From positions 1 through 46,694 of the forward strand of contig JAHRWB010000037.1 of NCBI GenBank assembly GCA_019090385.1: a stretch of DNA of 46,694 nucleotides. Direction: 5' to 3'. Position 1 is the stretch's first letter. The number at the start of each line of letters is the position of its first letter. Of this stretch, positions 39,689-46,694 are shown piece by piece. The DNA comes from Pseudomonadales bacterium (lineage in GTDB: Bacteria > Pseudomonadota > Gammaproteobacteria > Pseudomonadales > Azotimanducaceae). The notes under the pieces were generated by a model. The model did not search any database. It worked only from the letters and a program-made list of their open reading frames with translations, and was not told the DNA's origin. The position numbers were made by a program, and so were the translations under genes.

Positions 39689-41263
39689 TTAACCGTGACC
39701 CCAGCCACCACCACCCGGCGTAGCAATACACAGCTGATCTCCAGGCAGTGCCTGAAATTGTGTCTTCGCAGCCAGTGGTTCACCATTTAAGGTGTTCAAT
39801 CCGGGTTTGGCTGGCTGTCCTCCAGACAAGCCCCAAGGCTGCAGTGTGCGTCTTTCTGTCAGCAAACTCACTTCCGTTCTTTCCAAAAACCTGAATTCAC
39901 GCACCAACCCATCTCCCCCTTTGTGCAAACCATTGCCCCCGGAACCAGGGTTTAATTCGTATCGCACAATTTGCAGCGGATAATGTGCCTCAAGGCTTTC
40001 TACCGGGGTGTTCAAGGTATTGGTCATATGGGAATGTTTACCTGACAGTCCGTCACCCAGCGCGTACGCTCCGCTGCCACCACCTATGGTTTCATAATAA
40101 TCCCATCCTGCCCGCTGGCCCGGCTTTTTACCCATGGCAACGTTATTCATTGTGCCCTGGCTCGCAGCCGGAATTAAGTCCGGGATTGCCAGAGCCAGAG
40201 CCCCCAGCAACACGTCAACTATTCTGCTGGAAGTTTCCACATTACCCGCCGCAACAGCTGCCGGATAGACCGCATCCACCAGGCTGCCAGAGCGAGTGAT
40301 TAGCTGTATAGCTCTGAAACCACCCTGGGCCGCAGGCATATACTCAGGCATCAGACAACGAAACACATAGTACACTGCGGCTGCAGTTACCGCTTTTGGA
40401 CAGTTTATGTTCCCGCGCACTTGATCATCAGTATTGGTGAAATCGACTGATACTGCATCACCCCGTACCTGGACCAAAACACGTATAACAATATTCTCCG
40501 CGCCAGTGCCATCATCATCCATGCAGTCACTGAATTTATACGTGCCATCCGGTATATCGAACAGAACTCCCCTCGTAATTCGCTCAGCATAATCATTCAA
40601 AGCATCCAGGTTTGCCAGTATCTGCTGGTGACCCTCTGATGCTATAAGCTGCTCCAAACGCTCTTGCCCCAATTTGTTAGCACCAAATTGAGCAAAATAG
40701 TCACCCAAATTCTGATTGGAACGGCAAGCGTCTATATTGGAGTATTGCTGTCCGGACAAGGCTTCAAATAATGACAGCAAAGCATTCGTTGGCTTTCCAG
40801 CAGTAAACATTAGCGTTGGCGGAATAACCAAACCTTCTTCTTCGAGAACCGTAGAAAGTGGCATTGAGCCGGGACTGTCAGAACCAATATTAGCGTGATG
40901 CGCCCTGCTCGCTACGAAAGCCATCAGATGATTATCAAAAAATACCGGTGTAACAATAGTAATATCCGGTAAATGCGTACCGCCCAGAAATGGATCATTC
41001 AGCATCACCAAATCACCCACCTGCCAGTCAAACTGCTCAGTCAGGGAGCGCATGGCATAAGCCATACTACCCAAATGCACCGGTATATGGGCGGCCTGTC
41101 CGAACAATTGCCCCTGGGCATCAAACAACGCACAGGAAAAATCCAGGCGATCCTTAATATTAGGTGAAAATGCGGCACTTTTAAGCATAACGCCCATTTC
41201 ATCGCAAATGGCCTGAACACGATTGCTGAACAGGGAAAGTTTTATGCCATCCAGCTCAGACAT
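39689..41263 (-). CDS. Hydantoinase B/oxoprolinase family protein (orphan subunit)
   Basis: HyuB-type subunit (524 aa) of ATP-dependent N-methylhydantoinase or 5-oxoprolinase-like enzymes. The N-terminus ([37 protein letters not shown]), [23 protein letters not shown], the [12 protein letters not shown] stretch and the GGGGWG end are all diagnostic. The usual partner HyuA (hydantoinase A) is not adjacent: the flanks are a lyase gene and argD. Either it is encoded elsewhere or HyuB acts alone. The promoter region lies between it and argD (41264-41441). Confidence 0.88.
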
Positions 41264-41369
41264 CAGGACCAGCCCCGCAATTTTCGAATTTGTATCTGCG
41301 TAATAATATTATTCTATCCCGGTGTTTTTGTATCAATCTTCCGGAGCCATGCAAAAGCCGGCAAACTGG

Positions 41370-41400
41370 TTGACTACACATCTATGCCTATTAGTATAAT
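41370..41400 (+). promoter_or_regulatory. Sigma70-like promoter upstream of argD
   Basis: TTGACT (41370-41375) and TATAAT (41395-41400) are both strong matches, 19 bases apart, a longer spacer than the ideal 17. Transcription would begin near 41407, immediately before a hairpin at 41410-41426. Confidence 0.5.
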
Positions 41401-41459
41401 GCCTGCACGGGCAGCTCAAAGCTGCCTTTTTTGTTTTCTGAATGACTTTCAGGCATAGA
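41381..41459 (+). promoter_or_regulatory. Candidate argD leader: nested and alternative stems around a terminator
   Basis: TCTATGCCT (41381-41389) is perfectly complementary to AGGCATAGA (41451-41459), which contains the argD ribosome site AGG. ATGCCTG (41399-41405) is an alternative, mutually exclusive partner for CAGGCAT (41450-41456). Both enclose the terminator-like hairpin at 41410-41432. The upstream arms would be in the RNA only if transcription starts before 41381. Confidence 0.4.
41410..41432 (+). terminator. Intrinsic-terminator-like hairpin just ahead of argD
   Basis: GGCAGCT-CAA-AGCTGCC is a perfect 7-bp GC-rich stem followed by TTTTTT (41427-41432). No plus-strand gene precedes it, so it sits inside the argD leader, 30 bases before the ATG: an attenuator, a 5' stabilising hairpin or the end of a very short RNA. 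Confidence 0.7.
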
Positions 41460-41462
41460 ATA

Positions 41463-42626
41463 ATGGGACTCATGAATACTTATGCGCGTCTTCCGGTGGC
41501 TTTTGAATCCGGCCAGGGCGCTTACGTTCAAGACACCAAGGGCAAACGCTATCTGGATGCGCTTTGCGGCTTAGGGGTGACCGGGCTCGGGCATGCGCAT
41601 CCTAAGGTTACTGCGGCCATCACAGCCCAGGCAGGACGCCTGCTACATACGTCCAATCTTTACGAAATACCCAACTCAACAAAACTAGCCGAGCGCTTGT
41701 GCAGCATTTCCGGCATGGAGAGCGTTTTCTTTGGTAATTCCGGTGCTGAAGCCAATGAAGCAGCCATTAAAATAGCGCGTTTATATGCCAATCAGCAAAA
41801 AAAGGAAGGCGGCAGCATTGTTGTAGTAGACGGTTCTTTTCACGGCCGCACCATGGCCACATTAACCGCAACTGGTAATCGAAAAGTTCACGCAGGCTTT
41901 GAACCGCTACTTTCAGGCTTTGTGCGTGCCCCCTACAACGACATACAAGCCATTAAAACCATTGCGGAAAACAACAAGCAAGTGGTTGCCATTCTGCTGG
42001 AACCCATTCTTGGCGAAGGTGGCATCATTATCCCAAGTGACAATTACCTAAACGATGTTCGAAAAATATGCGACGAACACGGCTGGTTGATGATGCTGGA
42101 TGAAGTGCAAACGGGAAATGGCCGCACAGGAACATATTTAGCTTATCAACATACCGATATATTGCCGGATGTAGTTACGCTTTCCAAGGCACTGGGCAAT
42201 GGCTTACCTATTGGTGCCTGCCTGGCTCGTGGCAAGGCTGCGACACTTTTGCAACCTGGCTCCCACGGCTCAACCTTTGGCGGCAACCCTATGGTTTGTG
42301 CGGCAGCCCTCTCAGTACTCGATGTTATTGAGGAAGACGGACTTCTACAACGCGCAGAAATTTTAGGGCAGCGTATTCTTGAGGGTTTCAACAAAAACCT
42401 AAAAGGCTGCAATACTGTTACAGAAATACGTGGTATGGGCCTTATGCTGGCAATTGAGCTGAATATAGAATGCACTAACCTGGTTACTCAAGCGCTGGAA
42501 AAGGGGCTACTGATTAATGTAACCCAGGGCAACATTGTACGCATGTTACCGCCACTGATTCTTAGCGAAGAACAGGCAGACGAAATTGTCTCGACGGTAT
42601 CCCAACTCATACTGGATTTTGGATAA
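41463..42626 (+). CDS. argD: Acetylornithine aminotransferase
   Basis: Class III PLP aminotransferase (387 aa) that converts N-acetylglutamate semialdehyde to N-acetylornithine in arginine synthesis; ArgD enzymes often also serve lysine synthesis. GNSGAEANEAAIKIAR, SFHGRTMATLTATG, MLDEVQTGNGRTG and the PLP lysine in TLSKALGNGLPIGA are present. The N-terminus (MGLMNTYARLPVAFESGQGAYVQDTKGKRYLDAL) looks like betaproteobacterial ArgD. I chose the ATG at 41463, with AGG nine bases upstream; ATG at 41472 and 41442 are alternatives. argF follows three bases after the stop. Confidence 0.92.
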   Translation: MGLMNTYARLPVAFESGQGAYVQDTKGKRYLDALCGLGVTGLGHAHPKVTAAITAQAGRLLHTSNLYEIPNSTKLAERLCSISGMESVFFGNSGAEANEAAIKIARLYANQQKKEGGSIVVVDGSFHGRTMATLTATGNRKVHAGFEPLLSGFVRAPYNDIQAIKTIAENNKQVVAILLEPILGEGGIIIPSDNYLNDVRKICDEHGWLMMLDEVQTGNGRTGTYLAYQHTDILPDVVTLSKALGNGLPIGACLARGKAATLLQPGSHGSTFGGNPMVCAAALSVLDVIEEDGLLQRAEILGQRILEGFNKNLKGCNTVTEIRGMGLMLAIELNIECTNLVTQALEKGLLINVTQGNIVRMLPPLILSEEQADEIVSTVSQLILDFG

Positions 42627-42629
42627 TTC

Positions 42630-43520
42630 ATGCGCAGCTTTTTGTCATTGTTAGATTTTACAACCCAGGAACTCGTTGGTATTGTTGATCGCGCAACGGA
42701 ATTAAAGGTAATGTTGAAAGCCGGTGAAGTGCACCAGCCCTTGCAGGGTAAAACACTTGCAATGATATTTGAATTATCCTCAACGCGCACGCGCGTTGCT
42801 TTTGAAACGGGTATGTTTCAACTGGGTGGACATGCCATTTTTATCGACTCGCAATCGAGTCAGCTGGGCAGAGGTGAGCCCATTGAAGACAGCGCACGCG
42901 TACTTTCGGGCATGGTTGATATCGTTTCCATCCGAACAATCAATCACCAACTTCTGGAAAAATTTGCTAACGTAGCCAGTATTCCATTGATCAATGCAAT
43001 GTCCAATACCTTGCATCCTTGCCAGTTGTTGGCAGACATGCAGACGTTTCAGGAGCATCGTGGCTCTATTGAAGGGAAACAGGTAGCCTTTATCGGTGAT
43101 GGTTACAATATGTGTAACTCCTATATTAACGCCGCACAGCAGTTCAATTTTAATCTGCGTATCGCTTGCCCAATAGGTTTTCAACCCGATGCAGCACGAC
43201 TGCAAAAAAACACACAGGTACAGCTTGTTACCGCACCCGAAGAGGCCGTAAAAAATGCTGACCTGGTAGTCACTGATGTCTGGTCATCCATGGGTCACGA
43301 AGAAGAGCAAACCCGTCGCATTAATGCCTTTAAAGGCTATCAAGTTACTACCCAGTTGTTGGACCTTGCGAACAAAGATGTGCTGTTTATGCACTGCCTG
43401 CCGGCACACCGCGGAGAAGAAATAAGCCAGGATTTACTCGACGACAAACGCTCAGTGGCCTGGGAAGAGGCAGGGAATCGTTTGCATTCACAAAAAGCAC
43501 TACTGGAATTTTTATTGTAA
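42630..43520 (+). CDS. argF: Ornithine carbamoyltransferase
   Basis: Anabolic ornithine transcarbamylase forming citrulline (296 aa). The carbamoyl-phosphate motif SSTRTR spans 50-55, [12 protein letters not shown] is near 129, and the ornithine-binding region reads [14 protein letters not shown]. Short length and the lack of the long catabolic-type extensions support the anabolic class. It is co-transcribed with argD, three bases apart. Convergent with the GGDEF-EAL gene, 66 bases away. Confidence 0.95.
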
Positions 43521-43545
43521 AGCTAATATTTTTTTGCAGGTAAAT

Positions 43546-43587
43546 CGGTTTGTTCTGGGATAGAATCAGTTTGTTTTAGAATAGACT
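43546..43587. repeat. Two imperfect 21-bp direct repeats after argF
   Basis: CGGTTTGTTCTGGGATAGAAT (43546-43566, abbreviated here as CGGTTTGTTCTGGGATAG) and a second copy, CAGTTTGTTTTAGAATAG onward (43567-43587), agree at about three quarters of positions. They fill most of the argF/GGDEF gap. Confidence 0.45.
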
Positions 43588-46500
43588 TAGGGATTCAGGT
43601 CACTGAGTAAAATGGGCTTTTCAATACCATAACCCTGCCCATAATCCACACCTATTTCGATCAGCTTTTTCAATATGCTCTCGTTTTCCACATACTCAGC
43701 AATAGTCTTTTTGCCCATGTAATGGCCTATTTCATTGATGGATTTCACCACAGCGTAATCGGTAGGACTATTGTCCAACTCTTTAACAAACACACCATCA
43801 ATTTTTACGAAATCCACCGGCAGGTTGCGCAAGTAAGAATAAGATGACAAGCCGGTGCCAAAATCATCAAGGGAAAATTGGCAGCCTATTATTTTCATGC
43901 GATTCATAAAATCTACCGCATTATCGAGATTTGATATAGCCGCTGTCTCTGTCACCTCGAAAATGACTTTTGAAGTAGGAACCTGAAACAATGAAAATTT
44001 TTCCATAATAAACTCGGCAAAACTTTCATCGTTGACCGAGTGTCCCGAAACATTTATTGAAAAGCCAGCAAACTTGTCCAATTTAGCGCGATTATCAGCC
44101 ATCCAACTCAAGGTATTCTCAACCACCCACCGGTCGATCACCCCCATGCGGCTATAAGTCTCTGCCGCTAATATAAAATCACCCGGCGGAATAATATCAC
44201 CCAGCTCATCGCGCATTGTGAGTAATATTTCGTAGTGAACCGCTTCGGGGCTATTATCAAGAACTGGCGATATTCGCTGACAATTGAGTATCAAACGGTT
44301 CTGCTCCACTGCGCTATCGAGTTCAGTTACCCACTCCATCACGCCATGTCGCTGTATCATGCGTGTATCGCCGACCTCAAATTCCTGGATTCGATTGCGT
44401 CCAGCCTCTTTAGCCATATAACATGCTTCATCCACATGTCGCATAATAGTGTCGACGTTTTCGGTAAACTCATCCAGAAATACCAATCCAATGCTGGTAT
44501 TAATATTATACTGCCGCTGCTTCCATTCAAATTTTATAGCGCTTACAGCAGCCAAAACATCTGCAGCAGTATCACGTACCGCTTGTGTCTCTACATCTTC
44601 AAGCAAAATACCAAATTCATCCCCACCCAAGCGTGCGATATAGGCAGTCGTTCCTTTCATGAGATTAGTCAATACCTCACCCATTTGCTTGAGCAAGGCG
44701 TCACCAGCACTATGGCCACTGGTATTATTGATAATTTTAAACTGATCGAGGTCTAGATAAAGTAGCGCATGCTGAACGTATCGAGATTTTGCACGAGAAA
44801 TAGCATCTTCCAGGGTTCGCTCAAACTCGCGTCGATTGATCAGTCCTGTCAGGTCATCATGACAGGACTGATACATCAAATCATCATGCATGCTCTGCAG
44901 CATTCGTTGGGAAGCGCGCTCCATAAGAGGCATGTCAAAATCTTCCAGCAGGGTGATATCACCTTCATGCAAAAGATCAGTAAGCTGTTTAAGATTAAAC
45001 TCGTGGGTTTTCACACCTTTGCGATTTACCAATACAAATTGCGTGTAGTTATCACCTACAAAAGCAAAGGTAAGTATTAATGGCCGACCCTGATTATCAC
45101 TCATAGCCACCCATTCACCCACATGGATGCACCGAGCACGATCCAGGGACCGCCCCCAACTCTCGCGTATGTCCTCGTCATTGGTATTAATAACCGGATT
45201 TTCATCCGGTAGAATACCAGCCAAGCCCAATGCAGCAGTTACGCCATCACCAGGCATAAAGGTTGTACTCCCCTTAACCTTTTTACCTGATGCATCTCCA
45301 ACCAGGGCAGAACTAAGCGCCATAATCAGCGGTGTGCGCCTGGCAGGCTCAAATGAAATACTGTTTAGTCCTTCTACAACACGTTTCAGCAGGGCTTCTG
45401 GCTCAGTATAATCCACATCACCTGATACAATAGCACCGCTTAGCTGGCCAGCCACTTGTTCCATTATATTCAGCGTATCAGCCCACTCATTACTTTCCGG
45501 GCCGGCGCGCAAATAAGTATGCACCATCAGATTTCGCCAACCTGGATTCAGTAATTCCAGCATCAAATCCGGGACATCCTGTTCTTTAAAACGCGCTTCA
45601 ACCTCGTCAACAACCGTGCGTCGAGCGCGAGCCAATTTCTGATGGCCTTCGCTGGTTTTTACAGTGCGCTCTACATTACCCTGATAGGCTTTACTTTGTT
45701 GATCAACTAAGGGATTCAACTCGTCCAGAATTTCTTCAAAAATTTCCGGATTGCCATCATATTCTTTGACCAACCGCTCCAGCAGCTCATCAACACGGCG
45801 ACCTACATTTCGCTCTATCCCCACTTTCGTATCTTTGGAATTACCCAATCGTGCCAGGGTATTTAAAACCTGAACTGCGCTGTGCGGCTCATCAACATTC
45901 GAGGCGAGAAATCCAGGATCACTAAGAGCCACCTTATTTAAAGTCAGCTCCATACGACCCAGCCAATCCCTAATACCTTCCGTCAGAAATCCATCAGCCT
46001 GGATAGAGTCAACCAGGTTTTCCATAACATCGAGTGCATCGTATTGCTCTTCGACTATGGCCTTTTTACCACCGTGAGTATTTTCGAGTATTTGCAACAA
46101 ACGTGGTTTGAGGCGCTCATCGCGCAAGGAGGTATCACCCAATTCCGTTTCAACCACAGACATGGCTGCTATAATATCTTTCGTTAGATACCGATGTTCA
46201 GGACTCGCATTGGGTTCTGCAAAATTCACCTCCGGGCCGTTGCCCTGCTGTTTTTTTGTACTACGACCTAAGCTGAGTAATTCTCGGGCAGCCTTATAAA
46301 CCGCTTCATTGCCCGCTTTAGGTTCATAAGGATTACGCGTACCAGTGGTTGAAATACCATCCGCGGCCATACTCGCTTCCCGAACCCCCGCTGCCAAATC
46401 CTGATAAGCACCAGGCCGTGCACTGGGCGAGGCCCCCTTGCCCATTTTTGATCGGGCTACCGCTGTACGGACTTCCTCCAGGGAAGGGAACACGCCCGTA

Positions 46501-46694
46501 TTGAGTAAAAACTCCAATACATTATCGTAAAAACCCGGCAATTCATTCAGCAGGAGCCCTTCATACAAGGTATACAATTCATGACGCACCTGACGCCCTA
46601 AATCCATAGTCTCCAGAGCATCATGAAAAGCCCATGCCAAAGCTACCGGACCTACAGGCATAATATCCTTGTGGCCCCAGGGTTTTATAACCAA
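43587..46694 (-). CDS. DUF1631-GGDEF-EAL cyclic-di-GMP protein (partial, N-terminus off the edge)
   Basis: At least 1035 residues, with the 5' end beyond the right border. The N-terminal half (about 1-600) is DUF1631; its C-terminal part HVGEWVAMSDNQGRP...FVLVNRKGVKTHEFNLKQLTDLL is typical. Then come a diguanylate cyclase domain (about 630-785, GGDEF intact at 690-694) and a phosphodiesterase-type domain (about 805-1030). In the latter EAL reads EIL (822-824), and the metal/catalytic region DDFGTGLSSYSYLRNLPVDFVKID and AEYVEN are close to consensus. No RxxD inhibitory site precedes GGDEF. No membrane helix is visible in the part seen. Likely a soluble cyclic-di-GMP enzyme or effector. Confidence 0.9.
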   Translation of the reverse strand: MVIKPWGHKDIMPVGPVALAWAFHDALETMDLGRQVRHELYTLYEGLLLNELPGFYDNVLEFLLNTGVFPSLEEVRTAVARSKMGKGASPSARPGAYQDLAAGVREASMAADGISTTGTRNPYEPKAGNEAVYKAARELLSLGRSTKKQQGNGPEVNFAEPNASPEHRYLTKDIIAAMSVVETELGDTSLRDERLKPRLLQILENTHGGKKAIVEEQYDALDVMENLVDSIQADGFLTEGIRDWLGRMELTLNKVALSDPGFLASNVDEPHSAVQVLNTLARLGNSKDTKVGIERNVGRRVDELLERLVKEYDGNPEIFEEILDELNPLVDQQSKAYQGNVERTVKTSEGHQKLARARRTVVDEVEARFKEQDVPDLMLELLNPGWRNLMVHTYLRAGPESNEWADTLNIMEQVAGQLSGAIVSGDVDYTEPEALLKRVVEGLNSISFEPARRTPLIMALSSALVGDASGKKVKGSTTFMPGDGVTAALGLAGILPDENPVINTNDEDIRESWGRSLDRARCIHVGEWVAMSDNQGRPLILTFAFVGDNYTQFVLVNRKGVKTHEFNLKQLTDLLHEGDITLLEDFDMPLMERASQRMLQSMHDDLMYQSCHDDLTGLINRREFERTLEDAISRAKSRYVQHALLYLDLDQFKIINNTSGHSAGDALLKQMGEVLTNLMKGTTAYIARLGGDEFGILLEDVETQAVRDTAADVLAAVSAIKFEWKQRQYNINTSIGLVFLDEFTENVDTIMRHVDEACYMAKEAGRNRIQEFEVGDTRMIQRHGVMEWVTELDSAVEQNRLILNCQRISPVLDNSPEAVHYEILLTMRDELGDIIPPGDFILAAETYSRMGVIDRWVVENTLSWMADNRAKLDKFAGFSINVSGHSVNDESFAEFIMEKFSLFQVPTSKVIFEVTETAAISNLDNAVDFMNRMKIIGCQFSLDDFGTGLSSYSYLRNLPVDFVKIDGVFVKELDNSPTDYAVVKSINEIGHYMGKKTIAEYVENESILKKLIEIGVDYGQGYGIEKPILLSDLNP

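Follow-up and report, generated by a model that had tools for sequence, protein, structure and literature searches.

The window analysed here is the whole stretch of 46,694 nt of contig JAHRWB010000037.1 (GenBank assembly GCA_019090385.1, forward strand, positions 1–46,694) from a Pseudomonadales bacterium of the Azotimanducaceae. It carries the arginine genes argD and argF, preceded by promoter-like hexamers and a terminator-like hairpin (Table 1). For argD, the ATG at 41463 (MGLMNTY...) seems a likelier start than the alternative at 41472, because a sister genome of the same genus keeps it in frame (ATG ACA CTC ATG); with this start, the CAGG in front of it would be the ribosome site, in line with the original prediction. 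The hexamers TTGACT and TATAAT, which the original prediction had taken together as a promoter at 41370–41400, are present as claimed and are separated by 19 nt, although the scan itself picked TAGTAT (41392–41397, spacer of 16 nt) as the −10 element. The argD transcript is predicted to start at about A41407. Just outside the hairpin, T41427 is able to pair with G41409.

Table 1. Coordinates of the argD–argF genes and of the features in their control region
Feature	Position	Strand	Basis or remark
−35-like hexamer TTGACT	41370–41375	+	Sequence reading; same hexamer, with a 19-nt spacer, in sister L038
−10-like hexamer TATAAT	41395–41400	+	Sequence reading; kept in sister
Terminator-like hairpin GGGCAGCT-CAA-AGCTGCC	41409–41426	+	Sequence reading, scan, fold and conservation
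Two-block U-tract TTTTTTGTTTT	41427–41437	+	T6 at 41427–41432, then G and T4; two-block T profile in 131 leaders
Likely ribosome site CAGG	41450–41453	+	Inferred; CAGG also in sister
argD, acetylornithine transaminase	41463–42626	+	TIGR00707, 454.3 bits (cut-off 410.05); alternative start 41472
argF, ornithine carbamoyltransferase	42630–43520	+	TIGR00658, 362.8 bits (cut-off 280.85); 3 nt behind argD

The upstream neighbour (39689–41263) lies on the minus strand and is divergent from argD, so that the hairpin ends no nearby upstream gene of the same strand, as had been proposed, and we reject the possibility that it serves a gene lying before argD in the window. This neighbour resembles a caprolactamase beta or hydantoinase B type subunit, at 196 bits and thus far under the family cut-off of 1000. 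On the other side, a minus-strand open frame of 1035 aa (43587–46694) is convergent to argF, contains a GGDEF-like stretch (RLGGDEFG) and runs off the window.

In the sister L038, the only other congeneric genome compared, TTGACT-19-TATAATGCC is retained, as is the complete stem-loop GGGCAGCTCAAAGCTGCC followed by a T6 run. Conservation within the order was assessed in 80 argD leaders (one for each of 26 genera of the family to which the window belongs, and 54 from genomes spread over 47 other genera), using a script that requires only a stem, a loop and a T-rich tail (score of at least 16). Outside the family the element was found in 51 of the 54 genomes; the exceptions are L150 and L118, which lack it, the stretch of L118 being truncated by the end of its contig, and L156, in which the stem can still be seen by eye, enclosing a loop of about 41 nt. 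Inside the family it was found in 11 of the 26 genera and 15 failed; one of the positives (L079) passes the script yet is unlike the others, and in L090 and L092 the stem is present by eye with a poor tail. A poor terminator tail occurs in part of the family. By eye, L008 seems to retain the stem around a loop insertion longer than that of L156. In five own-family argD leaders (L095, L096, L097, L100 and L103) the hairpin is absent and, by eye, a stretch like CTGGTTTATNATCGC is shared just upstream of argD; perhaps this is another promoter that replaces the element.

At the level of the class, we sampled 151 genomes, each of another genus, of which 112 had an argD match, and the script additionally required a TAnnnT hexamer just upstream of the stem and tail. 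The element was detected in 69 of these 112 leaders; 13 of the 43 that failed look positive by eye. With a score of at least 20, 67 of the 112 argD leaders passed, compared with 3 of 560 dinucleotide shuffles. Of 161 control genes (other genes of the fetched loci whose upstream space measures 100 nt or more), 10 passed, two of them being argF leaders. An earlier leader set gave, under a stricter score, 46 of 122 leaders versus none of 610 shuffles. The hairpin with its T6 run before argD, present at the locus as first described, is therefore well beyond chance by conservation. Among the named-genome loci, 20 of 26 pass; of those that fail (L008, L009, L019, L020, L024 and L025), L009 has by eye a hairpin with the −10 element farther away, and L025 (Comamonadaceae) has none.

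The sequence of the stem is more variable. In 19 of the 69 positive class leaders the stem chosen by the script has no GCRG/CYGC core, and several of these are wholly different stems at the same place, although four of the 19 hairpins, which end at least 86 nt before argD, may instead mark the end of another gene. A GGCAG/CTGCC core, in most cases with a spacer of 4 nt, is frequent in rows that had been chosen beforehand for that core; over the class leaders, the spacer between the stem halves ranges from 3 to 16 nt. Judged from these alignments, structure and place are conserved more widely than the stem sequence. Two genomes of only about 1.1 Mb (L204 and L209; f85) also retain the hairpin, at a distance of about 33 nt upstream of argD.

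The position of the hairpin with respect to the promoter is also constrained. Over 84 leaders the mean −10 score peaks 12–16 nt before the stem, and in 67 of them the best −10 hexamer ends 10–18 nt before it. Transcription usually starts 6–8 nt after the −10 element; from these distances, the transcript would begin about 2–12 nt before the stem. Among the 69 class leaders, 38 have no more than 50 nt between the end of the hairpin and the aligned argD start (minimum 33), so that argD must usually be transcribed through the hairpin, with little room for a second promoter. This location between the predicted promoter and the gene, observed in the comparison of 84 leaders and in that of the class, fits the placement of an attenuator, in which termination would be conditional.

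The element has the arrangement of an intrinsic (Rho-independent) terminator, in which a U-rich tract comes immediately after a GC-rich stem-loop. When the core stem behind TAnnnT was sought with the tail ignored, it was found in 131 of 233 leaders, and 128 of these 131 have at least seven T in the next 15 nt. The T profile of the 131 leaders reaches 95% at positions 3–4 and 98% at positions 9–10, and falls to background by 13–14. The same two-block tail, less strict (0.68 at position 9), was observed in 81 gene-end terminators of the same loci, a few of which (e.g., L014) are themselves argD hairpins. The hairpin is part of the minimum-energy fold in 87 of 90 leaders, and 73 of the 90 have a terminator score above 0, with 39.3 for the window and −13.3 for L053, one of the poor-tailed family members. 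The outer stem pairs covary (columns 3/24: AU 19, CG 5, GC 4, GU 3, UA 3, other 9) in an alignment (A1) of 43 of 60 distinct rows; since these rows were chosen by a pattern for the inner core, the inner-stem pairs carry no evidence and only the outer ones count. A terminator-like match is in itself common (7 in positions 40001–46694 versus a shuffle mean of 7.5). Taken together, termination at the U-tract is strongly implied.

The association of the element with arginine genes was evaluated with a search model, R1, and with a strict pattern. In the genome of origin, R1 scored 34.9 bits at this hairpin, its only strong match, and 19.6 at the next site, among the 150 of 1814 first-look candidates that were scored. 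The strict pattern gave 36 sites in 286 genomes, one per genome, 33 of which precede argD and three of which (L159, L185 and L186) lie at gene ends, and the backward control pattern gave none among the matches listed for the genomes of this search. Over the class, at least 158 of 369 genomes had an R1 match, and at this scale the model largely recognises terminators as such. Its 30 best class loci comprise 14 before argD (that of the window included), two before argF, ten located 14–38 nt behind a reading frame, and four others (L190, L197, L199 and L217). At L321, one of the 69 positive class leaders, the script chose a hairpin different from that of R1, which is nearer argD (L200). The element was observed before stand-alone argF in L215 and L216. 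Twenty further genomes were chosen for having an argF match but no argD match; the element is present in six of their argF leaders (L232, L234, L238, L246, L248 and L250) and missing from 14, and in L233, one of the 20, argF closely follows another gene and by eye has no leader.

The original prediction read the region as an attenuator or an RNA switch. The comparison supports the attenuator half, since a large part of the Gammaproteobacteria has a terminator in this position, but not the switch half. The switch would consist of upstream arms that compete for the ribosome site, either among themselves or against the hairpin, by mutually exclusive pairing of TCTATGCCT (41381–41389) or ATGCCTG (41399–41405) with CAGGCATAGA (41450–41459). 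These segments are located as described, the 9-nt complementarity in the window was reached by none of 50 shuffles, and a longer transcript folds that way. Nevertheless, the pairings are not conserved in relatives: the sister locus has 4 nt of such complementarity (shuffled mean 4.8), its ATGCCT repeats and its CAGGCATAGA pairing are both altered, and the mean over 90 leaders is 5.13 versus 4.98 in shuffled sequences. The long alternative stems are rejected on these chance-level values in relatives. Furthermore, the 5′ arms lie in front of the conserved −10 box or overlap it, and are thus probably not transcribed. We consider this switch the least probable of the readings, with almost no weight left to it; the comparison favours the alternative offered by the same prediction, in which transcription starts near 41407 and the 5′ hairpin alone remains.

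No match at the gathering score of any Rfam family was obtained in the window and 12 relatives; the best weak matches were FourU (19.7 bits, gathering score 60) and L20_leader (16.6 bits, gathering score 58.7), and known Rfam families, riboswitches included, are rejected, since nothing reaches the curated score. Attenuators of the trp and his type, which depend on a leader peptide, place a conditional terminator ahead of amino-acid biosynthetic genes. In contrast, if the start is where it is predicted, argD has only about 2–12 nt before the stem, in which a leader peptide or an alternative stem cannot fit, and no conserved alternative pairing is seen. The rimP-leader is described as a conserved 5′ terminator with no antiterminator, and for that reason a protein factor was proposed (Naville and Gautheret 2010, PMC2965389). 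The two share a short 5′ terminator, a conserved stem, no visible antiterminator and a variable distance to the gene. They differ in that the rimP-leader, as presented there, belongs to rimP-nusA-infB, has a GGGc...gCCC stem and is a 180-nt leader in B. subtilis, whereas the element described here belongs to argD and argF, has the stem GGCAGC...GCTGCC and starts within about 12 nt of the predicted transcription start; by gene and stem it falls outside that family, and the words argD, argF and arginine are absent from the main text of that article. The greA leader, according to the description of GraL (PMC6829880), likewise has a promoter-proximal terminator, which ends about two-thirds of the transcripts as short RNAs, but it precedes greA and not arginine genes, and 19 nt lie before the terminator structure. 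For the greA and rnk leaders clear antiterminators have been proposed; none is visible at argD. A full-text search of open-access papers found no description of the element, which would belong with the attenuators that have a 5′ terminator.

From these results, we propose, with a probability of roughly two in three, that the hairpin is an intrinsic terminator abutting the promoter that acts as a minimal, sensor-less transcription attenuator of argD–argF. Transcription would begin at about 41407, and when the polymerase arrives at the U-tract, the RNA that emerged first would fold into the GC-rich hairpin. Many transcripts would then end as RNAs of about 25–35 nt, and the argD–argF mRNA would come only from polymerases that read through. 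Because nothing upstream of the hairpin fits a leader peptide, an aptamer or an antiterminator, read-through would be set by an agent that targets the hairpin or the early elongation complex, such as an RNA-binding protein, an elongation factor, or the nucleotide or ppGpp status. That read-through is regulated, and by which signal and factor, is our inference; arginine is proposed as the signal because of the genes concerned and the absence of ArgR, for which the element may stand in. This raises the question of how a terminator in the first 35 nt could be regulated without a sensor sequence.

The terminator could also end a fixed share of the transcripts and thereby set the basal level, with argD–argF unregulated through it. 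The lack of a visible sensor is as compatible with such a constant brake as with regulation, no conserved alternative fold is seen either, and the element persists in L204 and L209, whose small genomes would be expected to hold few regulators. However, a weaker promoter would serve equally, and the conservation of the place in 69 of 112 leaders suggests an added use; we regard the constant brake as unlikely, though as the strongest competitor. A 5′-terminal hairpin of the ompA mRNA is reported to protect it from 5′-end-dependent decay, and a stem beginning about 2–12 nt from the predicted 5′ end, present in the minimum-energy fold of nearly all leaders, could shield the argD–argF mRNA in the same manner, termination not being its job. 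For such a cap the U-tract would be needless, yet it is found in all but three of the leaders picked without regard to the tail and is shaped like that of the gene-end terminators, which makes this explanation improbable. Still more doubtful is a DNA operator at the start point, with a repressor bound to GGCAGC-N-GCTGCC and an incidental U-tract. The frequent GGCAG/CTGCC core with its usual 4-nt spacer, in rows selected for that core, would agree with it, but the spacer varies as described above and reaches about 41 nt in L156, wholly different stems occupy the same place, and an operator requires no U-tract. An operator with fixed half-site spacing is ruled out by the variable spacers and differing stems, and the suggestion that the ATGCCT repeats form an operator fails on their change in the sister.

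In ArgR-bearing gammaproteobacteria, ArgR regulates the arg genes, with the same targets, and does so, in contrast to the hairpin, as a protein repressor on DNA (PMC5343134). Pseudomonas has an AraC-type ArgR, a type that a PF01316 search does not cover. PF01316 had no match in the genome of the window, and the E. coli positive control was matched in both the order and the class search. In the order it exceeds the cut-off in 8 of 279 genomes, all of one family, with nine more below the threshold; in the class sample it is present in 15 of 151 genomes, of which five also have argD (G499, G520, G574, G582 and G593). The hairpin is found in none of these five argD leaders versus 69 of the 107 without ArgR (p = 0.007), or 82 of 107 when the cases recognised by eye are included (p = 0.001), statistics that ignore descent. 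At four of the five ArgR-bearing loci, argD lies no more than 64 nt behind another reading frame of its strand and may therefore lack a separate promoter. When the leaders were split accordingly, the contrast was 0 of 4 versus 19 of 33 (p = 0.046) for those with a same-strand frame ending within 70 nt, and 0 of 1 versus 50 of 74 (p = 0.33) for those without one. The mutual exclusion of the hairpin and ArgR is therefore only a hint, and this shrinkage lowered our confidence in the ArgR-substitute reading as well as in the best explanation.

We extend the attenuator reading to the class only tentatively, giving it about half the weight of the reading for the locus itself: gammaproteobacteria without ArgR may govern argDF, or only argF, through a terminator directly joined to the promoter, with read-through depending on a trans factor or the state of the polymerase and without a sensor RNA. 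If so, many non-enteric gammaproteobacterial lineages would use it in place of ArgR, and it would be the most compact attenuator that we know of. A single 30-nt element common to many families offers a test case for arginine control without ArgR.

Two further leaders deserve mention. In L332, tandem hairpins precede argD by eye, the second having a U-tail and a stem unlike GGCAGC. The argD of L027 is 64% identical and has a gammaproteobacterial leader; its record is titled as a halobacterial archaeon MAG, and it is probably a misassigned contig.
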